Program-made: the position numbers and the translations under genes
IMG/VR virus record: IMGVR_UViG_3300009146_000023
Coordinates: 1-40,784 of that record
Source of the DNA: a virus
Reading direction: 5' to 3' (one strand)
Length of the DNA stretch: 40,784 bases
Notes under the pieces: model-generated
Database searches by the model: none
Told to the model about the DNA's origin: nothing
What the model saw: only the letters and a program-made list of their open reading frames with translations
Part shown: positions 124 through 40,784 of the stretch, in pieces
Layout: every line of letters begins with the position of its first letter
Position numbering within the stretch: position 1 is the stretch's first letter

Positions 124-493
124 CCGAGGTGAACAGCGCCGCCGCATCGAAGTGCTGGCGCCCCAGAACCCAGCAACCCGGGAGTGGTTGCTGGATGTGC
201 TGGCGCCCTGCGTCCGGTGCGGCTTGCCCATGCATCCCATCCGGTCGCGCCGGAGTACGGGCTTTTACTACGCGGCGGCGTGCCCCCTCGACAAGAACGT
301 GGGGTGCTCGCGCAGTGGCGAAGCCTCCGACGAATACCGGCGGATCGTGGCGGACCTGGAGACGGCGCCGGTGGGGCCGGTCACGCCATCGCTCTTTGAC
401 GAGCCGCCGCGCCGGCTGACGCCCCACGAGCGGCACCAAGCCGCCGCCGATGCAGGTGTGGATACGTGGCAGGAATTTCGAGGGGAACGATAA
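32..493 (+). CDS. Hypothetical protein with cysteine pairs
   Basis: A 153-residue protein of unknown function. It has a CVRC pair at about residues 60-63 and further cysteines about 20-30 residues later (AACPLDKNVGC), which suggests a small zinc-binding fold in the middle. The ATG overlaps the TGA of the preceding zinc-ribbon gene (40478-40696) across the circular join, so it is translationally coupled and belongs to the rightward early operon. The last residues (RGER, stop) lie inside a 14-bp direct repeat that recurs at 1641-1654. Confidence 0.75.
   Translation: MSGLLTILTHPDWPRLRAHLRLETYSRDTNSRGEQRRRIEVLAPQNPATREWLLDVLAPCVRCGLPMHPIRSRRSTGFYYAAACPLDKNVGCSRSGEASDEYRRIVADLETAPVGPVTPSLFDEPPRRLTPHERHQAAADAGVDTWQEFRGER
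479..492. repeat. 14-bp direct repeat flanking an inserted cassette (left)
   Basis: CGAGGGGAACGATA here is identical to 1641-1654. This copy encodes the last residues of the preceding gene and supplies the ribosome-binding sequence (GAGGGG) of the next one. The two copies bracket the two A/T-richer genes between them. Confidence 0.8.
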
Positions 494-495
494 AT

Positions 496-1068
496 ATGGA
501 AGCTCTCGCCAAAAAGCCAAACGACACCATCGCCCGCCCCTTGCCCGTACTGGCGCGACTGATTCAAGAAGATTTGAAACACGCTGCGGCCGCCGCTGAA
601 AAAGCAGGCATGCCGTATTTCATCGCGGCCGGTGAAAAGCTTCTTGAAGCAAAAATACAATTGCCGCACGGTGAATTTATCGAATGGGCGGTGCGACATT
701 TCAGTCGGACACGTGGACAGTTGAATTACTACATGCGTCTTGCTCAAATGTCTTCGACCGAAGACATTTCATCGCTTGGCGATTTGCGCCGGCTCACGCA
801 GCCTTCATATCAACCCCGACCGAGCCATCAGGCGTGGCATGAACCCGTCAAGGAGGTTATCAATCGCGTTGATACCGAGACGTTGAATCTTCGGCGCGAC
901 GAATTGAAGCGCAGCGATGAACGGATCGCGCAACGGAAACTCGGGTTGCAGTTGATTGATATCGGCTACAAAGTGCTCGCGAAAACCCTACATCCAGACA
1001 AGGGCGGCTCACGGGACGCGATGGCGCGTCTCAATGCCGTACGGGACCGTCTCAAACAATGCGTCTAG
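496..1068 (+). CDS. DUF3102-like phage protein with a C-terminal J-domain-like HPD motif
   Basis: A 190-residue protein. The N-terminal half (a helical segment containing GEKLLEAK and HGEFIEWAVRHFSRTRGQLNYY) resembles the DUF3102-type phage proteins. The C-terminus carries helix-HPD-helix (YKVLAKTLHPDKGG, H166-P167-D168), the signature by which J domains stimulate Hsp70 ATPase. Only helices II and III of a J domain are evident, so co-chaperone activity is inference. The start at 496 is preferred over an in-frame ATG at 466 because GAGGGG lies upstream at good spacing and the earlier ATG would lie inside the previous gene. Base composition is visibly richer in A/T than its neighbours. Confidence 0.75.
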   Translation: MEALAKKPNDTIARPLPVLARLIQEDLKHAAAAAEKAGMPYFIAAGEKLLEAKIQLPHGEFIEWAVRHFSRTRGQLNYYMRLAQMSSTEDISSLGDLRRLTQPSYQPRPSHQAWHEPVKEVINRVDTETLNLRRDELKRSDERIAQRKLGLQLIDIGYKVLAKTLHPDKGGSRDAMARLNAVRDRLKQCV

Positions 1069-1083
1069 GAAAGGAATGGATCT

Positions 1084-1611
1084 ATGACAGCAACAGACGG
1101 CAAGGAACAAGAAGATTTTACGCTGACGCCTCCAGCGCGTTCCAAGCCAACGCTCACGCAAGTGGGGAATCGCTTCATGGCGTCCGATGCGCGCTTTCAT
1201 CCAGAATTGGCGGCGAAATACATCATTAATCACGGAGGTCGCGAACGTCGCTTGCCGATGGGGGAACTGGCGCGGGTGTTTTATGGCGGCAATACGCCAT
1301 CAAACAAGAAGCGGATTCGGCAGCGCATGTGGCGAATCAATTTCTTCGTCTTGCAGCGAGGATTTCTGTTGGTGGTCGAGATTGATCCGCGTCTCGGCGC
1401 GCAAAGCTGCAAAATTTACGACCCGCGATCCGTCGAAGACCAGCGATACGTTGATGACCGGCTGATGCGCATGAAGAACATCGGCATCCTGAAACAATCG
1501 CAATATTGCAAGGCTCTTGAATTGAAGCATGAACTAGATGCCACCGTGGCGGACGAGAGCAGTACATCTGTGGTGACAGGTGATGACGATGGCGTCAGTG
1601 CCGCTACGTGA
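1084..1611 (+). CDS. Hypothetical protein
   Basis: A 175-residue protein that I do not recognise. It has a basic central helix-rich part (about residues 55-85, SNKKRIRQRMWRINFF), a hydrophobic strand (GFLLVVEID), and an acidic, serine-rich tail. The shape could fit a winged-helix or other nucleic-acid-binding fold, but no motif decides this. It has an AAAGGA ribosome site upstream. Together with the preceding gene it forms an A/T-richer pair bounded by 14-bp direct repeats, so the two probably travel together. Confidence 0.7.
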   Translation: MTATDGKEQEDFTLTPPARSKPTLTQVGNRFMASDARFHPELAAKYIINHGGRERRLPMGELARVFYGGNTPSNKKRIRQRMWRINFFVLQRGFLLVVEIDPRLGAQSCKIYDPRSVEDQRYVDDRLMRMKNIGILKQSQYCKALELKHELDATVADESSTSVVTGDDDGVSAAT

Positions 1612-1640
1612 CCGCAGTTAAGGGACGGCTCGAAAAATAC

Positions 1641-1654
1641 CGAGGGGAACGATA
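1641..1654. repeat. 14-bp direct repeat flanking an inserted cassette (right)
   Basis: Identical to 479-492. Read in the same frame, it would again encode RGER followed by a stop (TAG here, TAA in the left copy). It therefore looks like the original 3' end of the gene at 32-493, displaced by an insertion of about 1.16 kb. Confidence 0.75.
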
Positions 1655-1713: not shown

Positions 1714-2418
1714 ATGACGAACAGCATTCGAGCAGTCGTGACCGCCAGCATGCTTCTCGCGGCCACTAGCGCCTCCGCCGACCCCGTAACGGTCGCGTCC
1801 TTCGCGGATCCGGGGGGGTCGAAGTTTATGAGCTACACCACGGACGGCACCAACGCGGGCACGACCTTCACGGGCGGGTATGACCTCCTGGGGTTGATCT
1901 TCAACATCATTGAGCCGATTGCCGCCAGTTATCCGAATGCCACGTTTACCTTCCCGACGCTGACCGCCACGGCCTTTCTTGAACCGATTCCTGGGGCAAC
2001 CCTGACACGGTTCAACGGCGGGCAGATTGACTTCTTCGACGCGCTCCTCAACCCGATTTTCCATATCGTGTTCGGGGCGGCGACCCTGACAGATCCGGGT
2101 GGGTCCATCGGCGGGAGCGTCCTGGCCCTGCAGGGGGTGAACCTGTTCCTGCCCAGCGGCGACCCGTACTTTGATCCGCAGGACTTCAGCTTCACGCTCA
2201 TTGGCCCTGAGCCGGGTGTCGCGGGCGGCCCGTCCACCGTGTCCGGGGCGCGAGCCTTGGCCCTGTCGTCTGGTACACCACAAAGCCTCTCATGGGGGTC
2301 ATCGTTCAATGCCAGTGCGGACCTGACGCAAGTGCCGGAGCCGGGGAGCATGTTCCTGCTCGGGACGGGACTCGTGGGCCTTGCCACGTCGGTTCGGCGG
2401 CGCCGGCAGAACGTCTAG
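1714..2418 (+). CDS. PEP-CTERM sorting-domain protein (secreted, exosortase substrate)
   Basis: A 234-residue exported protein. Residues 1-22 form a signal peptide (hydrophobic AVVTASMLLAA, cleavage after ASA). The body is low in charge and rich in G/T/P/F, consistent with a beta-rich extracellular domain. Residues 207-234 are a complete PEP-CTERM tripartite signal: VPEPG, a hydrophobic helix (MFLLGTGLVGLA), then RRRRQ. In known systems exosortase (EpsH/XrtA type) recognises this signal, and none is encoded here, so the host must supply it. Such genes are typical of bacterial chromosomes, not phages; this looks like a host-derived cargo gene expressed to alter the lysogen surface. ATG 1714 is chosen over the upstream in-frame GTG at 1693 because it places the signal peptide at the N-terminus. 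Confidence 0.88.
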   Translation: MTNSIRAVVTASMLLAATSASADPVTVASFADPGGSKFMSYTTDGTNAGTTFTGGYDLLGLIFNIIEPIAASYPNATFTFPTLTATAFLEPIPGATLTRFNGGQIDFFDALLNPIFHIVFGAATLTDPGGSIGGSVLALQGVNLFLPSGDPYFDPQDFSFTLIGPEPGVAGGPSTVSGARALALSSGTPQSLSWGSSFNASADLTQVPEPGSMFLLGTGLVGLATSVRRRRQNV

Positions 2419-3428: not shown

Positions 3429-4192
3429 CGAATGCGGTGCAGCAACTCGACGCGCGGCCAGAGACGGCCACGGCGCATACGATTGAATCGGCGCTCATCG
3501 GCGGCGACCTCTCGAAACTCTCCGTCAGTCAACGGCTGGCGTACTACAACCAGGTGTGTCAGTCACTCGGGCTGAATCCTCTCACGAAGCCCTTTGCCTA
3601 TATTCCACTCAACGGCAAGTTGACGCTCTACGCGCTCCGCGATTGCACGGACCAACTCCGCAAGATTCACAACGTCAGTGTCACGATTGTCGAGCGCGGC
3701 AAGTTCGAGGAGTCGGTCTATGTCGTGCGGGCGCATGCCGTGCTCACGACGGGTCGCACCGATGAAGCCTTGGGTGCGGTGCAGATTGCCGGGTTGAAAG
3801 GCGAGCCACTCGCCAATTCGTTGATGCGTGCGGAGACGAAAGCCAAGCGGCGGGTCACGCTCTCGATTTGCGGGTTGGGCTGGTTGGATGAGACCGAAGC
3901 CGAGACCTTACAGCACGAGCCGCGCGGGGTTCCGCTGGCGTCGGTGCGCGCCGAGACCGTGGATACCGCGACGGGTGAAATCGTGGAGGCCGAACCCGCG
4001 AAGCCCGAACCGCCGAAACCCGGGGGGTGGGACGATTGGTTTGACGACCTGACCGCGACGGCCGACGAGGGGATCAAAAAGCTCGAACTGACGTGGAAAA
4101 AGTCCAGCGTGGAGTATCGGCGCTATCTGACGACGCAGATGCCCGACCGCTGGGATGACCTCAAGAAGCACGCCGCGCAAGTGCCGGTATGA
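3425..4192 (+). CDS. Putative RecT/Bet-type single-strand annealing protein
   Basis: A 255-residue protein with the pattern of phage annealing proteins: an N-terminal helix followed by CQSLGLNPLTKPFAYIP, which matches the RecT/Bet-style LGLNPLTxE core, then an ALRDCTDQLRK helix and a conserved MRAETKAKRR segment. The C-terminal third is proline- and acid-rich before a final helical tail. It is a candidate partner of the YqaJ-type exonuclease encoded immediately downstream, with overlapping stop and start codons. That pairing is the classic two-component phage recombination arrangement. The start is a GTG with GGAGG upstream. Assignment to one annealing-protein superfamily is not settled by eye. 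Confidence 0.72.
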   Translation: MTNAVQQLDARPETATAHTIESALIGGDLSKLSVSQRLAYYNQVCQSLGLNPLTKPFAYIPLNGKLTLYALRDCTDQLRKIHNVSVTIVERGKFEESVYVVRAHAVLTTGRTDEALGAVQIAGLKGEPLANSLMRAETKAKRRVTLSICGLGWLDETEAETLQHEPRGVPLASVRAETVDTATGEIVEAEPAKPEPPKPGGWDDWFDDLTATADEGIKKLELTWKKSSVEYRRYLTTQMPDRWDDLKKHAAQVPV

Positions 4193-4857
4193 ACTTCACC
4201 ATCGTGGACGTAGAGCAGGGAAGCTCGGCATGGCATCAGGTGCGCGCGGGGCGTCTCACGGCCTCTCGTGCCGCCGATGTCGTGGCGACGTTGAAATCCG
4301 CGGCAGAACCCGCGGCCCGTCGTGATTACAGAATGCAACTTGTCGTTGAGCGGTTGACTTCGATGGCCCAGGACAACGGGTTCCAATCCCTCGACATGAA
4401 ACGCGGGACGGAACTTGAGCCCTTGGCGCGGGCCGCCTACGAAGCCCAGACCGGCACGATGGTCACGCAAGTCGGATTCTGTGCGCATACCGAGGTGATG
4501 GCCGGGGCGAGTCCTGACGGCGTGATTGATGACTTCGAGGGGCTGCTGGAATGCAAGGCGCCGCGGTCGGCCACGCATCTGCGCTATCTGCGAGACGGGC
4601 GCGTGCCGGCGGAATACGTGCCGCAGCTCACGGCGCAACTCTGGATCACGGGCGCCCAGTGGGTGGATTTCGTGAGCTACGACCCGTTGATGCCGGAGCC
4701 GTTACAGGTGTTTATGGTGCGCCACGCGCGGGACGATGACGCGATTGCGGCGTACGAGAAAAAGGCGCTCGCGTTCTTGGCTGAGGTTGACGCAGAAGTG
4801 GATGCCGTGCGGACGCTCATGGATTTGCCCGGGACGCTGGCGGTGGCCGTGGGCTGA
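4189..4857 (+). CDS. YqaJ/lambda-exonuclease-type recombinase nuclease
   Basis: A 222-residue nuclease of the PD-(D/E)XK YqaJ family. It begins with the family's characteristic SSAWHQVRAGRLTAS motif. The active site is visible as GASPDGVI (catalytic Asp) and LLECKAP (E-x-K), followed by YVPQLTAQLWIT, the conserved Q segment. Family members digest one strand of duplex DNA 5' to 3' and hand the exposed strand to an annealing protein, here the candidate just upstream. The ATG overlaps the previous TGA, and its own TGA overlaps the NinB start. Confidence 0.92.
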   Translation: MNFTIVDVEQGSSAWHQVRAGRLTASRAADVVATLKSAAEPAARRDYRMQLVVERLTSMAQDNGFQSLDMKRGTELEPLARAAYEAQTGTMVTQVGFCAHTEVMAGASPDGVIDDFEGLLECKAPRSATHLRYLRDGRVPAEYVPQLTAQLWITGAQWVDFVSYDPLMPEPLQVFMVRHARDDDAIAAYEKKALAFLAEVDAEVDAVRTLMDLPGTLAVAVG

Positions 4858-14066: not shown

Positions 14067-16679
14067 ATGGGCGGGATGGGGTCGGGGACACGGAAGCGGG
14101 GAACGTTACCGGGGGGCGGGACGTGGACGAGCACGCCGCCGAGTGGGCCGCCGAGTGGGACGGTGCCGTGTCACGGGGTCGCGGTCAAAGACAAGGCGGG
14201 CGTCGAGCAGATTTTGTATCAGCCCACGGCCAAGCAGCTCCAATTTCATTTGTGCCCGGCGCGCAACATTCTCTACGGCGGCGCGGTATCGGGCGGGAAA
14301 GCGGTTCGGCTGAGCACGCCGATACCGACGCCCACGGGCTATCGGACGATGGGCGAGTTGGCCGTGGGCGATACCGTCTTCGATGAACGGGGCCAACCCT
14401 GCACGGTGACCTGGAAGTCGGATCCGCATGTGGACCCATCGGGCACCTACCGGGTGACCTTTGATGACGAGTCCGTCATTGTGGCGGGTGGTGCGCACGA
14501 GTGGCACACCTGGACGTATGTCGAACGCGAGGCCCGGCGGAAACGCAGTGCGGAGGCCCGCGCGGAGCGCCGGACGTCTCGCGCGTCCCGCAGCTTGGGG
14601 AAACGGCCGGATGTGGCCGCACGGAATCGAGCCACGGCGGTCGGGTATGCCGCGGCGCCGGTGACGGGCACGATTCGGACAACGGCGGAGATTGCCGACA
14701 CGGTGTACATCACGCGCCCGGGGACGCACCATCGGACCACGAATCACGCGATTCCGCTGGCCGGCGCGTGGCAGTGTCCCGAGGCGGTGTTACCGCTCGA
14801 CCCCTATTGCTTGGGCGTGTGGTTAGGCGATGGGAGCGCCGGGGCCCGGCATATTACGACCGACGACCCGGAAGTGCTGGCCCCGTTTGAACGGGCGGGC
14901 TTCACCTGTGTGTTTCTCGGCCGCTACCGCTGGTCGATTCATGGGTTGACCCAACCCCTTCAGGCGGCGGGCGTCTGGAAAGACAAGCATGTGCCGACGG
15001 CCTATCTCTGGGCGTCGGCGGACCAACGATTGGCGCTCCTGCAAGGGTTGATGGATAGCGATGGCTGGTGTGACCCAGACGGGGGCTGTTCCTTTGGGAG
15101 TATGAATCGGGGCCTCGCCGAGGCCGTGCGCCACCTCGCGACGAGTCTCGGGTTGAAGCCGCATACGACTGCGCGACGGGCCCGTCTGAACGGCCGGGAC
15201 TATGGCGTGTTCTATCTGGTGTCGTGGACAGGACGGGTGCCGGTGTTTCGGCTCACCCGGAAAGCGGCCCGACTCCCCACGCACGCCACGCCGCGGCCCC
15301 AGCAGCGGTACATCACGGTGTGCGAGCGGATTTCCGATGAACCGCTCCAGTGCATCGAAGTCGATAGCCCCTCGCATGAGTACCTGGTGGGTGACGCGGG
15401 GATTCCCACCCATAACTCGCATGGACTCCGCTGGGATGCGCACATGGCGTGTCTGTCGGTGCCGGGGATTCGCGTCCTCATTCTTCGCCGCACGTTTCCC
15501 GAACTGCAAGACACGCATTTGGACCGGGTGGGCGTGGAAGCGTCGAAAATGGGCGCGGAGTACCTCAAGAGCGAGTATCGCGTCCGGTTTCCCAATGGGT
15601 CCGTGGAGCAGTACGGGCATTGTGGGGACGACACGGCGGTCTCGCGCTACCTCTCCACCGAGTACGAGCGGATTTACTTTGATGAACTCGTCACGTTTAC
15701 CTTTCGGCAGTTTGTGATGATTGGCTCTCGAGCGCGGAGCACGAAGCCCGGCTATATCCCCCGCGTCTTGGCGGCCACGAATCCGGGTGGCCCCCATGCC
15801 TCATGGGTCCGCGAGTGGTTCATCAATAAAAGCGTGGATGTGCGGGAGTATCCGACGTATCGGCCCGAGGATTACGCCTACATTCCGGCGACTCTCGATG
15901 ACAACCCGTACATTGATGCGGCGGTCTACGAGCATCGGTTGCAGATGCTCCCGCCGGCGTTACGGGAGGCGTATCGGTATGGCTCCTGGGACATTTTCGA
16001 GGGGCAGTACTTTAAGGAGTGGAAGGCCCGGGACCATGTACGGACGCTCGAGGAGATTCCCCGGGAGGCGACCCGGTTCCGGGCGCTGGACTGGGGGTAT
16101 CTGCGGCCGGGCGTCTGCTTGTGGTTTGTGATGCTGCCCGATGGCCACCTCTACATAGAGGAGGAGTACGTCTTCAGCGAGACCATTGCGTCGGAGGTGG
16201 CGCGGGAGATACGGCGCCGGAGCGCGGGGCTAAAGCTGGGCTATACGGTAGCCGACCCGGCGATGTGGATTCGGGAAGGCAGTTCCGGGGAAAGCATTGC
16301 CGAGACGTTCGCGCGGAGCGGCGTCCCGTTGCTCAAGGCGGATAACGCCCGGGTGGTCGGGTGGCAGCGATTGCGGCATTGGCTGGCGCCGGCCCCGGAT
16401 GGGACGCCCTGGCTGACGGTCTCGCCGCGTTGCGCCTATCTCATTCGGACGTTGCCCTCCTTATTAATGGACGCGCATAATCCCGAAGATTGCGATTCCG
16501 ATTCCGAGGATCACGCGGCGGATGCCTGTCGCTACGGGGTGCAGTCGAGGCCGCATCCGGCGGGCGCGGCGAGCCGACCCAAGGTGAAACCCGGGACGGC
16601 GGGGGCGCTGCTCGAGGCGCTGCGCCGGCCGGGCAAGCCGAAGGTCGGGTCCACGAATGCGCGACGGGCGGTGGCCTGA
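14067..16679 (+). CDS. terL: Terminase large subunit interrupted by an intein
   Basis: An 870-residue precursor giving a 498-residue ATPase/nuclease after splicing. The N-extein (1-78) ends GGAVSGGK and the C-extein (451-870) begins SHGLRWDAH, so joining restores a Walker A motif GGAVSGGKS. Walker B is IYFDE at 536-540. The C-terminal RNase H-like nuclease shows Asp in RALDWGYL (675), VADPAMW (730) and DHAADACRY (819). The protein packages DNA into the procapsid and cuts it, docking on the portal encoded just downstream. Residues 79-450 are the intein. Without splicing, the ATPase site would be split, so packaging depends on splicing. Confidence 0.93.
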   Translation: MGGMGSGTRKRGTLPGGGTWTSTPPSGPPSGTVPCHGVAVKDKAGVEQILYQPTAKQLQFHLCPARNILYGGAVSGGKAVRLSTPIPTPTGYRTMGELAVGDTVFDERGQPCTVTWKSDPHVDPSGTYRVTFDDESVIVAGGAHEWHTWTYVEREARRKRSAEARAERRTSRASRSLGKRPDVAARNRATAVGYAAAPVTGTIRTTAEIADTVYITRPGTHHRTTNHAIPLAGAWQCPEAVLPLDPYCLGVWLGDGSAGARHITTDDPEVLAPFERAGFTCVFLGRYRWSIHGLTQPLQAAGVWKDKHVPTAYLWASADQRLALLQGLMDSDGWCDPDGGCSFGSMNRGLAEAVRHLATSLGLKPHTTARRARLNGRDYGVFYLVSWTGRVPVFRLTRKAARLPTHATPRPQQRYITVCERISDEPLQCIEVDSPSHEYLVGDAGIPTHNSHGLRWDAHMACLSVPGIRVLILRRTFPELQDTHLDRVGVEASKMGAEYLKSEYRVRFPNGSVEQYGHCGDDTAVSRYLSTEYERIYFDELVTFTFRQFVMIGSRARSTKPGYIPRVLAATNPGGPHASWVREWFINKSVDVREYPTYRPEDYAYIPATLDDNPYIDAAVYEHRLQMLPPALREAYRYGSWDIFEGQYFKEWKARDHVRTLEEIPREATRFRALDWGYLRPGVCLWFVMLPDGHLYIEEEYVFSETIASEVAREIRRRSAGLKLGYTVADPAMWIREGSSGESIAETFARSGVPLLKADNARVVGWQRLRHWLAPAPDGTPWLTVSPRCAYLIRTLPSLLMDAHNPEDCDSDSEDHAADACRYGVQSRPHPAGAASRPKVKPGTAGALLEALRRPGKPKVGSTNARRAVA
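14301..15416 (+). mobile_element. Class 3 (WCT) intein with LAGLIDADG endonuclease in TerL
   Basis: A 372-residue element. It starts with Ala, not Cys or Ser (AVRLSTPIPTPTGY, block A), has block B GGAHEW with His 66 and Trp 68 (intein numbering), block F CIEVDSPSHEYLV with Cys 351, and block G IPTHN with Thr 370, His 371 and Asn 372, followed by Ser+1. The Trp-Cys-Thr triplet with a non-nucleophilic first residue is the diagnostic of class 3 inteins, in which the block F cysteine makes the first attack. Between the splicing halves lie two LAGLIDADG-type motifs (CLGVWLGDG and LLQGLMDSDG), so the element can probably home. Confidence 0.9.
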
Positions 16680-21213: not shown

Positions 21214-22188
21214 ATGGCTGATCCGAATCTCGGACAACTCGCCGCCTCCGTGTATGAGGCGCATTTCGGCACGAAGCCGGAAGACAACATCTTCAACAGT
21301 GAATGGCTCATCAACCGGCTCTCCAAGAACGCGAAGGAAGAAACGGACGGCGGCCGACTGATTGAAGACACGCTGGAGTATGCGGAGAACACGACGTTCC
21401 GCAGCTACGGCGAACTGGAAGAACTGGATACGACCCGCATCGACGTGTTCGACGCGGCGCAGTATCACTGGAAGATCATCGCCGGCACCGTCGTCTATTC
21501 CGACCTGGAGAAATTGCGGGCGGCGGCGGCCAACCGGAAGTTCGACGTGATTGCGGCCAAATTGGAGAACGGGAAGAACTCCCACATGGCCGTCATCAAC
21601 CGGCAGGCGCACAGCGACGGCACGGGGAACAGCGGCAAGAACATTGGGGGCACGACGCTCCTGATTTCGAGCACGCCAACCACGGGCACGGTGGGCACCA
21701 TCAGCCGCTCCGCGTTTTCCTTCTGGCGCAACCGGCAAGTCGTCGGGACCAAGAGCGCCAGCAACTTCGACAACCTCCGCTCCGCGATGACCACGCTCTA
21801 CAACCAGTGCAGCAGCGGCGCGTTTGCGGAGCATCCCACCTTCGGGTGGAGCAATCAGACCGTCTTCGAGGGGTACGAGGGACTCATGGCCCCGCTGGAG
21901 CGGTTCAGCAGCGACGACAAGAGCAAGAGCGCGGACCTGGGCTTCGAGAACTCCATCATTCAGTTCAAGGGCATGAAGCTCGCGTTTGATGAGGATGCCC
22001 CGGCCGGCGAGCTGCGGATGGCGAACAACAAGAACCTCAAGCTCCGGTATCTCAAGGGTGGCTGGAACAAGATGTATCCCGGCGTGGATCCGGCGAACCA
22101 GTTGTCCAACATCCACAAGCTCGCGTCATTCTGCAACCTGTCCACCAACAACTCCCGGCGCCTCGGCGTCGTGACTGCGATCACGTAG
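21214..22188 (+). CDS. Major capsid protein
   Basis: A 324-residue protein following the scaffold. The sequence has the features of an HK97-fold capsid protein: an N-terminal arm, RLIEDTLEYAENTTFRSYGE, DAAQYHWKIIAGTVVYSDLE (spine-helix-like), DNLRSAMTTLYNQC, and a C-terminal IQFKGMKLAFDEDAPAGELR segment followed by LKLRYLKGG. It should be the most abundant virion protein. The assignment rests on position, size and pattern. Confidence 0.85.
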   Translation: MADPNLGQLAASVYEAHFGTKPEDNIFNSEWLINRLSKNAKEETDGGRLIEDTLEYAENTTFRSYGELEELDTTRIDVFDAAQYHWKIIAGTVVYSDLEKLRAAAANRKFDVIAAKLENGKNSHMAVINRQAHSDGTGNSGKNIGGTTLLISSTPTTGTVGTISRSAFSFWRNRQVVGTKSASNFDNLRSAMTTLYNQCSSGAFAEHPTFGWSNQTVFEGYEGLMAPLERFSSDDKSKSADLGFENSIIQFKGMKLAFDEDAPAGELRMANNKNLKLRYLKGGWNKMYPGVDPANQLSNIHKLASFCNLSTNNSRRLGVVTAIT

Positions 22189-36280: not shown

Positions 36281-36649
36281 ATGAGCAATCCCTACGGCGC
36301 CGATGTGACCGGCGCGATCTACGATGGGCCGACCGCGTGTGTGGTGAAGTTTGTAAAGATTGATACGACTGGAGGGGCACCACAGGTGCTTCCTGCGGTG
36401 GCAGGAAAAAAGATTCGCGTGCTGTCGTATGTGATCGTGGCGCCAAGTGCGACCTCTGTCCGATGGCGTGACACGTTAGAAGGGTATCATTCAGGGATGA
36501 TTGTATTTACCGCTGGTGGACAGGGGATTTCAGCCCCATATTGTCCTGTCGGTCATTTTGAGACCGTCGTCGGTGCAGTATTGTGGTTGGAGTCTTCCCC
36601 CGCAGTGACAATAAGCGGACACCTTACCTATATCGAGGTGTCAGCGTGA
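36281..36649 (+). CDS. Small beta-rich virion protein
   Basis: A 122-residue protein with a regular beta pattern (CVVKFVKIDTTGGAPQVLPA, KKIRVLSYVIVAPSATSVRW, HFETVVGAVLWLESSPAVTI). This resembles small head-fibre or tail-accessory proteins found with distal-tail genes. AGGAGG precedes the ATG. It overlaps the LamG gene. Confidence 0.6.
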   Translation: MSNPYGADVTGAIYDGPTACVVKFVKIDTTGGAPQVLPAVAGKKIRVLSYVIVAPSATSVRWRDTLEGYHSGMIVFTAGGQGISAPYCPVGHFETVVGAVLWLESSPAVTISGHLTYIEVSA

Positions 36650-37311
36650 GTTACGCGAGCACGGTGCTCGCGGACGGGGCTTCCAACCACTGGCCGTTGA
36701 ACGAGCCGAGTGGCACGACGGCGGTGGATGTCATCGGGGGCAAGAACGGCGCCATCAGTGGTGGCGTGACGCTGAATCAGGCGGGCATCGCGGGCGGCAA
36801 GGCGATGACGTTCAACGGGACGACGGGCAAGATTGCGACCTCATCACTCACGGTGTCGAACCCCAGTACGGTAGAAGTGTGGGTGAAGACATCCGCGCCG
36901 GGTTTTTATCAGCCGTTTTTTTCGACAAGGACAACTGGCGCCACAGGGCAAGTCGTGTTCATGGGTATTAATCCGAGTGGGCAGGTCTTCATAAACACGG
37001 CGACCGGTGCCCTTGGACTTGCCGTGATTACGGATGGCGCTTGGCATCACGTTGTTGTCGTGATCACAGGTGTCGGGGATCTCACGTTATATGTGAATGG
37101 CGTGCTCGACCCGTCTGGGGAGGTGGCTGGGGCACCAACCAGTACGGGCGTCGTGAGCATTGGATGGGATCAACAAGATGGGCTGTTCTGGACCGGCCTG
37201 ATTGATGAAGTTGCGATTTATCCGCTAGCGCTCACGCCCGCGCAGATTCTCGCGCACTACCAGCTCGGGGCCGGCGGCGGCGGGGGCGGGCTCCTCTTGG
37301 GCGTCGGGTAG
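36646..37311 (+). CDS. LamG/concanavalin-like lectin domain protein
   Basis: A 221-residue protein. Nearly all of it (about residues 8-205) is a Laminin-G-like jelly roll: HWPLNEPSGTTAVDVIGGKN, AMTFNGTTGKIA, STVEVWVKTSAP, AWHHVVVVITGVGDLTLYVN and WTGLIDEVAIYPLALTPAQI, the last being the usual DEVAIY ending. A glycine run (GGGGGG) closes the protein. It would bind surface polysaccharide, as an adhesin on the virion. It starts at a GTG overlapping the previous stop. Confidence 0.85.
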   Translation: MSYASTVLADGASNHWPLNEPSGTTAVDVIGGKNGAISGGVTLNQAGIAGGKAMTFNGTTGKIATSSLTVSNPSTVEVWVKTSAPGFYQPFFSTRTTGATGQVVFMGINPSGQVFINTATGALGLAVITDGAWHHVVVVITGVGDLTLYVNGVLDPSGEVAGAPTSTGVVSIGWDQQDGLFWTGLIDEVAIYPLALTPAQILAHYQLGAGGGGGGLLLGVG

Positions 37312-37336: not shown

Positions 37337-37586
37337 GTTGGGCTGAACGTTGGGCTGAGAGACGGAAGCGATTTAGAATCAACGTGATAGGCGAACGGAA
37401 TCCGGTTTCCTAAACCGAGGGCCGCAGGTTCAAGTCCTGCCGGGCGCGCCACTTTTTCCTCAGTAATTTCAAGTAAAATCGCGGTTTCTTCGCCTCGGCT
37501 GCCCAACGGCCTGCCCAAAAGTCACTCTCAAAAAGTCCAGGAAATTCCAACTTCGTCGGATCCATGTTGGGCAGAATGTTGGGCAG
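37337..37586. other. attP: attP: arm-type sites around a tRNA-derived core
   Basis: GTTGGGC(A/T)G-type 9-mers occur in three pairs, each with 12-bp period: 37337-37345 and 37349-37357 (plus strand, GTTGGGCTG), 37499-37507 and 37511-37519 (minus strand, the second ending differently by one base), and 37566-37574 and 37578-37586 (plus strand, GTTGGGCAG). They flank the tRNA-like core at 37402-37451, as expected for arm-binding sites of a tyrosine integrase. Confidence 0.8.
37402..37451 (+). other. 3' half of a tRNA-Arg(CCT) as attachment core
   Basis: From the anticodon arm to CCA: anticodon loop TTCCTAA (anticodon CCT, 37409-37411), T arm GCAGG-TTCAAGT-CCTGC (37424-37440), acceptor strand CGGGCGC, discriminator G, and CCA at 37449-37451. 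The 5' half is missing, so it is not a gene; it would rebuild the host tRNA on integration. Confidence 0.85.
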
Positions 37587-37657
37587 CATGTCTGCGAGAG
37601 AGCATCGGTCCACGGGACCGAGGGCCGCAGGTTGGACCCACGTTGGCCTGTGGGTCT

Positions 37658-38797
37658 TCACTCGGTGGGCTCCTTCTGTGCCGCCGCTCGAGCCTTCTTC
37701 ATGGCCGCGTCAGCGACCCGGGCAGCCTGCACCTTCCTGGCCGCCGCTAGCATCGCGGTCGGGACTGCGGCCAAGGCATATCGCTGCGTCGTGCGACCGT
37801 CCTGGTGTCGCATCATGTGCTGGGTCATTTTCATGTCGCCGGTTTTCTCGAGCAGGTCGGTCGCATAGCTATGGCGTAAGTCGTACGGCCGGGCCCCGCT
37901 CACGTCGAGTTTCTGACAAGCGCGCTGGAACGATTTCCACATCGCGGATTGCGAGAACTTTCCCCAACAGTTCAACGCGATGAACTGTTGGAAGGCCATC
38001 ACGCCTTCATCAAACAAGGGCACCGTGCGCCCCGTCGTGCCTTTGCCCTTCCGCCGGCCTTTCACGAACATCGTGCGCGCCGCCAGATTCAGTTCGTGTG
38101 GCTCGAGCCGCATCAGCTCCTTATGCGCGAGTCCCGTCGTGTGGATGACGCGCAAGCGAGCCTTCGTCTGTGACGCCTTCGGCCTCGTGCCTTTCCCTTG
38201 GCCGGTCGGGCGTCCGCGGTCTGGCATGGCGGCCAGAATCTCCTCGATGTCTGCCTCGGGGAGTGCGCGGGGGATCAGATCCCGGTCGGGCAGTAAGGGG
38301 ACATCTCGTAGAGGATTGGGCGCTTGCTTCCCATCTAACACCGTCCAGACGTTACTCAGCGAGCGGAGCCGGTTGTTGATGGTGTTCGGGGCGAGCAGCC
38401 GGCGAGCCAGCGGATCAGTCGGCGTGGGCGCCGGGTCGCCGTGAAGGCGCCACTGTTCCACTTGGATGCGAATATCCACAGAGGTAATCGTGGCGCGGCG
38501 CTGATGCCCGAAGATCGCGACCCACAACCCGATGTGATGCGCGCGGTCCTTGAAGGTGGTCATGGCGGCCTTGGCTTTCAGGTACTGCTCCGCATCGGCG
38601 GCAAAGGTGCCGGTCATGGGCTTCGCGTGACGGGTGCGCTGCCGCGCCGCTTCATCCTTGCGCCAGTCCTGCCGTTCTTTGTACGTGGAGCTGAGCGGAA
38701 AGACGGTGCGGAAGGGCATGCCACGGACGTTCACGCGGACTTCGTAGCCCGTGCCGTGTCGGCGGACGCCCGGGCCCAGTGAGGGTGTCTTGTTCAT
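37658..38797 (-). CDS. int: Tyrosine integrase
   Basis: A 379-residue tyrosine recombinase. It has an N-terminal arm-binding region (YEVRVNVRGMPFRTVFPL), a core-binding helical domain (YLKAKAAMTTFKDRAHH ... NTINNRLRSLSNVW), and a catalytic domain with VKGRRKGKG (lysine hairpin), YDLRHSYATD (Arg 308), RHQDGRTTQRY (His 331, nucleophile Tyr 340). The usual first catalytic arginine after TG is absent: the motif reads TGLAHKELMRL. Similar variants exist in some phage integrases. The start is one base after the stop of brnA. It should catalyse integration at the adjacent attP. Confidence 0.9.
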   Translation of the reverse strand: MNKTPSLGPGVRRHGTGYEVRVNVRGMPFRTVFPLSSTYKERQDWRKDEAARQRTRHAKPMTGTFAADAEQYLKAKAAMTTFKDRAHHIGLWVAIFGHQRRATITSVDIRIQVEQWRLHGDPAPTPTDPLARRLLAPNTINNRLRSLSNVWTVLDGKQAPNPLRDVPLLPDRDLIPRALPEADIEEILAAMPDRGRPTGQGKGTRPKASQTKARLRVIHTTGLAHKELMRLEPHELNLAARTMFVKGRRKGKGTTGRTVPLFDEGVMAFQQFIALNCWGKFSQSAMWKSFQRACQKLDVSGARPYDLRHSYATDLLEKTGDMKMTQHMMRHQDGRTTQRYALAAVPTAMLAAARKVQAARVADAAMKKARAAAQKEPTE

Positions 38798-38798
38798 C

Positions 38799-39092
38799 TC
38801 AGCTCGCCTGTTTGATGTGCGTCGTCAGTACTTCATGGATGAGGGTCTGATAGCCCATCTGCCGGCGGCGGGCTTCCTTGCGGAATGCCGTCAGTAATTT
38901 CTGGTCGAGGCGAATCGCGATGATGGTGCGCGGCTTGTCCCCTAACGGTGGGCGGCCGACACGACGCATCGCCTTGAGCTGGGCGGGTGATGCCTCGGGG
39001 ATGTCCGAGAAATCAATCTGGCTGTCGGGTGGTTGCGCGCTCGCGGCGACTCGCCGGCCGCGCGCTGATGATGCGGATCGTTTCTTTGCCAT
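38799..39092 (-). CDS. brnA: BrnA-like antitoxin
   Basis: A 97-residue basic protein. A flexible N-terminus (MAKKRSASSARGRRVA, SQIDFSDIPE, typical of BrnA) precedes a ribbon-helix-helix (RTIIAIRLDQKLLTAFRKEA, then RRRQMGYQTLIHEVLTTHIK). BrnA neutralises BrnT and represses the operon. It overlaps the brnT 3' end by 80 bases. Its TGA is separated from the integrase ATG by a single base, so antitoxin and integrase are co-translated. Confidence 0.87.
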   Translation of the reverse strand: MAKKRSASSARGRRVAASAQPPDSQIDFSDIPEASPAQLKAMRRVGRPPLGDKPRTIIAIRLDQKLLTAFRKEARRRQMGYQTLIHEVLTTHIKQAS

Positions 39093-39300
39093 CGCTAGAC
39101 CTCCGTGGGGTGTAGGCAACCGTGAGGATGCGCCCGTTGGTGCTGGTGCCATAGCGCAGTCGCCGGGCTTCAAAGATGGAGTGGGCCAAGTCTGGCGCGT
39201 CCACGCCGGACGGGTCGCCAAAGACGGTCGCGGCCTCCTCGAAGGAGACGCCGTGTTTCGCCTGATTGGCCGCCGCCTTCTGCGCATCCCACTCGAACAC
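39013..39300 (-). CDS. brnT: BrnT-like toxin (ribonuclease)
   Basis: A 95-residue protein matching BrnT: FEWDAQKAAANQAKHGVSFE, ATVFGDPSGVDAPD, GRILTVAYTPR, IRIISARPASRRER. BrnT is a RelE-fold toxin that cleaves RNA. The GTG at 39300 lies nine bases after a -10 element, so the message would be almost leaderless. A TTG at 39339 gives a longer frame but lies in the -35 element. In a prophage it could stabilise lysogeny. Confidence 0.87.
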   Translation of the reverse strand: MFEWDAQKAAANQAKHGVSFEEAATVFGDPSGVDAPDLAHSIFEARRLRYGTSTNGRILTVAYTPRRSSDGKETIRIISARPASRRERATTRQPD

Positions 39301-39309
39301 CTGAATTAA

Positions 39310-39339
39310 AGTATATACGGAGTATATACGATACGTCAA
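39310..39339 (-). promoter_or_regulatory. brnT promoter and BrnA operator
   Basis: On the minus strand TTGACG (39339-39334), 18 bases, TATACT (39315-39310). The spacer and -10 contain two copies of the palindrome GTATATAC separated by TCC, which is a direct and inverted repeat suited to a ribbon-helix-helix dimer pair. Autorepression by BrnA is the likely control. Confidence 0.8.
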
Positions 39340-39595: not shown

Positions 39596-40000
39596 CTATC
39601 CGGGGGAACGCTTGCGTCCGAGAGTGAGACGCTCGACCAGCGTCACGATGGCTAGGCGGGTGTCGTCATCGGCTGGGGTATCCAGTAAATCCCACACCCG
39701 GAACAACCGTCTTGTATACGGATCTGACCGGAGGGGTGTTTCAGGCGCGGCGGCGGGGTCGGCCGGAAGATACCCGTAGAGTTCGGGGAGGGAGCGGTCT
39801 AACGCGGCGGCAATGCGGGCCAAGGTGTCCTGCCGCATGGACTCGCCTTGTTCAATGCGCCGGATGGTGTCTTTGTTTAAGCCTGCGGCCCGCTGGCCTA
39901 ATTGGGTTTGGGTCAGGCCCTTGGCTTCGCGCAACTTCCGCACGACATCCCCAAGGTGAAACATGGGCCCCGGCCCAGCTTGCCACGGCGGATCTGCCAT
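39596..40000 (-). CDS. XRE-family phage repressor
   Basis: A 134-residue protein. An N-terminal Cro/CI-type HTH (VVRKLREAKGLTQTQLGQRA, then DTIRRIEQGESMRQDTL and ARIAAALDRSLPELYGYLP) is followed by a short helical C-terminal part, with no peptidase domain of the LexA type visible. It is the likely lysogeny repressor. ATG 40000 lies 11 bases after the -10 TATATT, so the message has a leader of only a few bases, like lambda cI from PRM. An alternative ATG exists at 39964. Three AGTCT-bearing sites lie upstream. Confidence 0.82.
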   Translation of the reverse strand: MADPPWQAGPGPMFHLGDVVRKLREAKGLTQTQLGQRAAGLNKDTIRRIEQGESMRQDTLARIAAALDRSLPELYGYLPADPAAAPETPLRSDPYTRRLFRVWDLLDTPADDDTRLAIVTLVERLTLGRKRSPG

Positions 40001-40011
40001 CGTCAAGCTCA

Positions 40012-40040
40012 AATATAGGGTCGCAGTCTCAAAAAGTCCA
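40012..40040 (-). promoter_or_regulatory. Repressor promoter
   Basis: On the minus strand TGGACT (40040-40035), exactly 17 bases, TATATT (40017-40012). The transcript should begin about four bases before the repressor ATG. Confidence 0.65.
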
Positions 40041-40481: not shown

Positions 40482-40696
40482 CGCGCCTCGCCAGCCAGCA
40501 AACGTCGATGTGGGTGCATTGTCGGCGCTGTCGCACCGAATGGGAAGTGCGGTTGCCGCTGCCGATGCCGTTAGACCGGGCGATCCGGGTCATCCGCGGG
40601 GCCACCGCCACGGGCTGTCCCACCTGCGGGGCGCACGGGCCGGACGTGCTCTGTGGGCAGACGCCCGAGACGACCAAAGACGAGGTGCCGGCATGA
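40478..40696 (+). CDS. Small zinc-ribbon protein
   Basis: A 72-residue protein with CRRC and CPTC separated by 28 residues, a zinc ribbon with a beta segment (WEVRLPLPMPLDRAIRVI). Coupled by ATGA to the genes on both sides. Function unknown. Confidence 0.65.
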   Translation: MTRLASQQTSMWVHCRRCRTEWEVRLPLPMPLDRAIRVIRGATATGCPTCGAHGPDVLCGQTPETTKDEVPA

Positions 40697-40784
40697 GCGG
40701 CCTCCTCACCATCCTCACGCACCCCGACTGGCCGCGCCTCCGCGCCCATCTACGGCTCGAGACCTATTCCCGCGATACGAACAG
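40662..40784. repeat. Terminal direct repeat, right copy
   Basis: Identical to 1-123. The gene whose ATG lies at 40693 is the same as the one at 32-493, cut by the end of the window (first 30 codons present). Confidence 0.95.
40693..40784 (+). CDS. Partial copy of the gene at 32-493
   Basis: The 5' end of the cysteine-pair hypothetical protein, duplicated by the terminal overlap and truncated by the end of the window. It proves that the operon continues from 40696 into position 32. Confidence 0.9.
   Translation, partial: MSGLLTILTHPDWPRLRAHLRLETYSRDTN

Follow-up and report, generated by a model that had tools for sequence, protein, structure and literature searches.

What does a phage do with a protein tagged for sorting to the surface of its host when the phage genome encodes no enzyme to read the tag? 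The question is raised by the gene at positions 1714-2418 of the window, i.e., the whole 40,784-nt stretch of DNA analyzed here (IMG/VR record IMGVR_UViG_3300009146_000023). In Gram-negative bacteria, the PEP-CTERM tag routes proteins to the slime-covered surface, and an exosortase reads the tag. Phages are also known for morons, stand-alone cargo genes that are dispensable for virion assembly. We propose, with a probability of roughly 0.6, that the gene is a moron: the host's exosortase would process its product, which would alter the envelope or exopolysaccharide (EPS) of the cell during infection or lysogeny.

An exosortase substrate in a phage that encodes no exosortase

Translation gave a product of 234 aa and agreed with the ORF boundaries of an earlier, sequence-only reading of this DNA; a GTG at 1693, seven codons upstream, is a possible alternative start.

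1714-2418 (+): gene for a predicted secreted PEP-CTERM protein (exosortase substrate), 234 aa
1714-1779 (+): N-terminal signal peptide MTNSIRAVVTASMLLAATSASA as predicted by eye and by hydropathy, with the cleavage site behind AXA
2332-2406 (+): PEP-CTERM domain (VPEPG, helix, RRRR), residues 207-231, over the cut-offs of TIGR02595 and PF07589

The signal peptide that the sequence-only reading had claimed is typical by eye, with a short basic n-region, a hydrophobic core (Kyte-Doolittle peak 1.54) and an AXA site ahead of DP, and it stands as a prediction. The C-terminus, VPEPGSMFLLGTGLVGLATSVRRRRQNV, consists of the PEP motif, a hydrophobic helix (Kyte-Doolittle peak 1.78) and RRRR, so that the sorting signal is intact, as had been stated. 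The protein scored 26.3 bits against TIGR02595 (curated cut-off 16) over residues 207-231 and 30.3 bits against PF07589 (curated cut-off 20.7), and a PF07589 scan of the whole record returned a single match, at 2329-2400 (34.6 bits, E 1.3e-9). With both curated cut-offs passed, the assignment as a PEP-CTERM substrate holds. A match by chance, though conceivable for a lone 24-residue signal, appears unlikely because the apparent export signal and the tag sit at the correct ends of one intact, phage-like ORF.

The exosortase models TIGR02602 and PF09721 found no match in the phage, which bears out the earlier statement that the enzyme is not encoded there. Since the phage has no exosortase, the enzyme would have to come from the host if the tag works, and we infer that the host has one. 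Given an exosortase-positive host, processing of the protein by the host's enzyme is very likely.

Searches with the body of the protein (residues 24-205) detected no homolog among GenBank phages or plasmids, in IMG/VR, or in 150 genomes from a single order of Pseudomonadota, and a scan of genome contigs with the 234-aa protein gave only matches to the tag, all in Burkholderiales. A weak match to the body (G500/L144) was discounted, as two stop codons lie within it. The PHROG search was likewise without a match, and single-sequence AlphaFold2 yielded a pLDDT of 34 and no usable structure. The best NCBIfam match was NF033554, the model of PepA-type flocculation proteins (PMC9850573), aligned over residues 28-231; the 35.6 bits, which probably come mostly from the tag, are far under the cut-off of 80, and the protein is not a member of that family. 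It adds a new member to the known domain family of PEP-CTERM proteins.

A closed, probably temperate phage genome

The remaining landmarks of the window are those of a phage.

1-123: end repeat, first copy, identical to 40662-40784
40662-40784: end repeat, second copy, identical to 1-123
4189-4857 (+): YqaJ/lambda-type exonuclease of the downstream recombination module (PF09588, phrog_149)
14067-16679 (+): terminase large subunit (TerL) with a probable intein
21214-22188 (+): major head protein (phrog_9953)
37403-37451 (+): attP candidate, matching the 3' half of tRNA-Arg(CCT), about 0.2 kb beyond the stop codon of the integrase gene
37658-38797 (-): tyrosine integrase (PF00589)
39596-40012 (-): Cro/CI-type HTH protein, repressor candidate (PF13560, PF01381)

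The 123-bp exact end repeat closes the contig to a 40,661-bp circle, and the window is a complete phage genome, which also encodes NinB, HNH and replication-initiation proteins. Because the contig is closed, the PEP-CTERM gene does not lie at a ragged, possibly chimeric end. Rightward genes begin at about 40179, cross the contig ends and continue into the PEP-CTERM gene and, beyond it, the recombination module.

We consider the phage probably temperate because it has an integrase, a typical tRNA-type attP and a Cro/CI-like repressor candidate. In the attP candidate, the last 49 bases agree with the tRNA-Arg of another contig (L010) at 47 positions, and the two mismatches compensate each other as a base pair of the anticodon stem; the tRNA-Arg(CCT) sequence of the site ends CGGTTTCCTAAACCGAGGGCCGCAGGTTCAAGTCCTGCCGGGCGCGCCA. 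A 17-bp piece of it (37414-37430) is repeated exactly 203 bp away, at 37617-37633 between attP and the integrase, and is possibly a second or relic core site. Within 3 mismatches, the corresponding attB was absent from 398 genomes across Pseudomonadota, a search pattern run without a positive control, and its absence argues for a host from another phylum or an unsampled group. Two attB matches in IMG/VR were rejected as leads to the host, being other viral contigs with a tRNA-Arg gene of their own.

Several further features were noted along the genome. In TerL, an insert at the ATP-binding loop (residues about 80-450) contains a LAGLIDADG homing endonuclease domain and is a probable intein; it starts near AVRLSTPIPTPTGYRTMGELAVGD, after YGGAVSGGK, and ends HN|S. 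Proteins of other phages that match this region carry the annotations DnaB-like helicase, Cas4-family exonuclease and DarB-like. The head protein has relatives at 25-30% identity in the Myxococcus phages Mx8 and Mx9 and in a Bradyrhizobium phage. A laminin-G/concanavalin-like lectin domain at 36646-37311, which ends the structural module, belongs to a candidate receptor-binding or decoration protein. Adjoining the integrase, 38799-39287 (-) encodes a BrnA/CopG-type antitoxin domain, with a candidate partner toxin at about 39013-39339 (-).

Close relatives of the phage in the collection were limited to one 7.9-kb fragment (L001), which matches 5.3 kb of the structural region at 95.8% identity and does not extend to the PEP-CTERM locus. 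Two other contigs (L002 and L003) have only the exonuclease in common with the window, at 51-53% identity, and carry no PEP-CTERM gene.

The immediate surroundings of the gene are as follows.

474-492 (+): 19-bp direct repeat (89%), left copy, bounding a lower-GC block
1636-1654 (+): 19-bp direct repeat (89%), right copy, bounding the same block
1612-1713: gap of 102 bp before the gene, no sigma-70 promoter, sigma-54-like site 7/11
2419-2641: gap of 223 bp after the gene, the largest of 31 same-strand gaps measured

The block between the repeats (about 500-1611 within window positions 474-1654; 52-56% GC) holds a DUF3102-like gene and a gene of no known kind, and it has the look of a single insertion immediately ahead of the PEP-CTERM gene. 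Such a block immediately upstream would be a ground for suspecting a chimeric assembly or host DNA beside the phage. However, the contig closes on itself, phage genes stand on either side of the PEP-CTERM gene, and the gene's codon use and GC agree with the phage and differ from the lower-GC block. An artefact is therefore very improbable, and the sequence-only reading was right to place the gene in a phage.

The two flanking gaps are among the four largest of the 31 same-strand junctions, whose median is 3 bp, and they set the gene apart as a separate unit amid phage genes, as expected of a moron. This anatomy is moron-like, and it also resembles that of cellular PEP-CTERM genes, which mostly form single-gene operons behind large non-coding stretches (PMC1569441). 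No match to the sigma-70 consensus, which may not be that of the host, was found upstream of the gene. The best sigma-54 site (7 of 11 positions) was equaled in 45% of random 350-bp stretches from other phage loci; in Proteobacteria, such a site lies upstream of 99 of 167 PEP-CTERM genes, where it is not required, and it was not seen outside that group (PMC1569441). Downstream, a GC-rich hairpin was predicted in 2419-2540 (z about -2), and no T-tract terminator was found.

The position of the gene also bears on when its product would act. The gene reads rightward, on the strand opposite the repressor candidate, and its neighbors are early and recombination genes. This arrangement would suit a protein made early in the lytic cycle that bars a second phage from the surface or prevents infected cells from losing EPS. 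The rarity of integrases in other PEP-CTERM-bearing viral contigs (3 of the 22 searched among the matches listed) points the same way, albeit weakly, as many of those contigs may be fragments. On the other hand, the gaps on either side suggest that the gene forms its own transcription unit, and lysis may outpace export, cleavage and EPS assembly. A lytic-cycle role differs from the moron explanation only in timing, being a variant of it with an overlapping probability, and we regard it as a serious possibility at somewhat below even odds. The lysogenic conversion that had been suggested for this gene gains from the phage being probably temperate, and as a general rule for such genes it is weakened because so few of the other contigs encode an integrase.

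PEP-CTERM genes in other viral contigs

IMG/VR was searched with the pattern VPEPG-gap-RRR, which gave at least 120 stretches, followed by a translation filter, and 23 further contigs among the matches listed were tested as whole records. The PF07589 cut-off was passed by 21 of the 22 other contigs searched among the matches listed. TerL (phrog_2) was found in 13 of the 23 PEP-CTERM-bearing contigs among the matches listed; as phrog_2 also matched in 11 of 14 cellular genomes used as a control, gene order is the better evidence. In one contig (L138), a DNA helicase gene is followed by two PEP-CTERM genes, TerL and portal; in others the order is head protein, PEP-CTERM and TerL (L134), portal, TerL, PEP-CTERM and replication-O (L135), two PEP-CTERM genes, TerL and portal (L133), or portal, TerL and PEP-CTERM (L132). 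The flanks in L140-L143 are less informative. With this order amid phage modules, the PEP-CTERM genes of at least five contigs (L132-L135 and L138) are placed within phage genomes rather than in host flanks. Judged by these gene contents, unrelated environmental phages also bear PEP-CTERM genes.

The nearness of some of these genes to TerL, portal or head genes could suggest a structural or tail-associated virion protein that bears the motif by accident. A signal peptide and a membrane anchor are unsuited to cytoplasmic virion assembly, however, and the window's gene is far from the structural module and without a PHROG match, which makes a virion component scarcely credible.

Neither exosortase model (TIGR02602, PF09721) matched in any of the 23 further contigs among the matches listed. 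This is expected either way because a host has one exosortase gene among many PEP-CTERM genes, and the absence of the enzyme from the contigs alone gives no argument for selection. A substrate unaccompanied by its enzyme in 24 of 24 records would also suit a decoy that jams the host exosortase or competes for it, with the result that host PEP-CTERM proteins miss the EPS layer and lysis or exit becomes easier, and tandem copies in several phages would increase the dose. Yet the tag is canonical, with the PEP motif and the basic end unaltered, and the phage families conserve bodies of roughly 200 aa, for which a decoy would have no need; we consider a decoy quite improbable.

Phage-borne PEP-CTERM families reach 44-73% identity across different contigs, and their pairs have dN of about 0.24-0.5 against dS of 1.1-2.0 (Nei-Gojobori), with dS near saturation. 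These ratios would imply purifying selection and a retained function, over a history that may include time in hosts as well as in phages. Different PEP-CTERM genes stand in tandem pairs in five viral contigs (L133, L136, L137, L138 and L139), several of them beside TerL, with varying combinations of families. Four of the phage-borne families were compared with isolated phages and found no match there. NF033554 was among the best matches for several of the other phage-borne proteins. A homology, suspected by eye, between the body of the window's protein and the phage-borne proteins of L041, L087 and L051 was rejected (hhalign 14.5, with shuffles scoring up to 19.5). The sequence-only reading had advised looking for the gene in related phages; no relative of the body turned up, and PEP-CTERM genes of other families were found in unrelated phages. 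As the window's protein and those families have only the tag in common, the window's gene looks like an independent acquisition.

It could also be a neutral or transient hitchhiker, a captured host gene that is perhaps translated and exported and is of no benefit to the phage. PEP-CTERM genes are numerous and diverse in the bacteria that bear them, making chance capture easy (PMC1569441), and with no relative of the body found, selection on the window's gene has no comparison. Against this, the ORF is intact with phage-like codon use, and such genes recur independently in other phages, in families under apparent purifying selection and in tandem pairs. A hitchhiker is, in our view, unlikely.

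Proposed role and relation to known systems

As a moron product, the protein would be exported by Sec through its predicted signal peptide and would stay anchored in the inner membrane through its C-terminal helix and RRRR stop. A host-supplied exosortase would then recognize the tag and cleave at PEP, and the cleaved protein would pass to the outer surface or the EPS layer. There, it may mask receptors or retain exopolysaccharide on the cell, to the possible benefit of the phage, and the changed surface could limit superinfection or favor aggregation of lysogens; effects in lytic infection are also possible. Blocking of superinfection, which the sequence-only reading had offered as an example, is a plausible candidate role, though one that we rate as rather unlikely to be the actual one. 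The literature has exosortases taking part in the trafficking of PEP-CTERM proteins to the cell exterior. Overexpression of PepA decreased soluble polymer, increased bound polymer and restored flocculation (PMC9850573), and an exosortase mutant lost EPS-to-surface adhesion and biofilm (PMC12188702).

The window's protein resembles those of the PEP-CTERM/exosortase (EpsH) system (Haft 2006, PMC1569441) in its predicted signal peptide, its PEP motif with transmembrane helix and basic cluster, its body of little homology in a family of diverse bodies, and its lone gene with non-coding flanks. Unlike in that system, the gene is phage-borne and single, with no exosortase in the genome and no sigma-54 site. 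A hot-spring virome study listed 13 viral genes with a C-terminal exosortase-interaction domain (TIGR03118) as transfers (PMC11003980). Those are likewise cellular exosortase-tag proteins in viral contigs; their mention there is a single sentence with the function unstated, and with neither genomic context nor a test for exosortases.

Phage surface proteins that exclude superinfecting phages include the lipoproteins Llp of T5 and Ltp of TP-J34. The window's protein is similar in being a predicted exported phage protein in the host envelope that is proposed to alter the access of other phages. In contrast to these lipoproteins, it would need a host C-terminal sorting enzyme. Our full-text literature search, which lay mostly outside subscription journals, found no paper that treats PEP-CTERM genes in phages as a phenomenon. 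Surface modification encoded by phages is a known theme; what is new is PEP-CTERM cargo that recurs across phages without its enzyme.

Because unrelated environmental phages also bear such genes, it is probable that phages use the sorting machinery of their hosts to remodel the cell surface. More tentatively, and at less than even odds, orphan exosortase substrates may be a widespread, selected phage cargo of one or two genes that rebuilds the EPS-bound surface of environmental Gram-negative hosts, in unrelated lineages that perhaps include strictly lytic phages. Bacteria of soil, sediment and sludge are rich in exosortase substrates, most of which are without a known function; a phage that carries the substrate alone implies a pay-off from altering the EPS-bound surface of its host, and one gene with one host enzyme offers a genetically simple handle on what PEP-CTERM proteins do. 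The hosts of such phages are predicted to be exosortase-positive, which would aid the assignment of hosts to environmental phages, and phages are predicted to be able to influence flocculation and biofilm traits. If the cargo is indeed widespread, the exosortase pathway would be a battleground between phages and their hosts.
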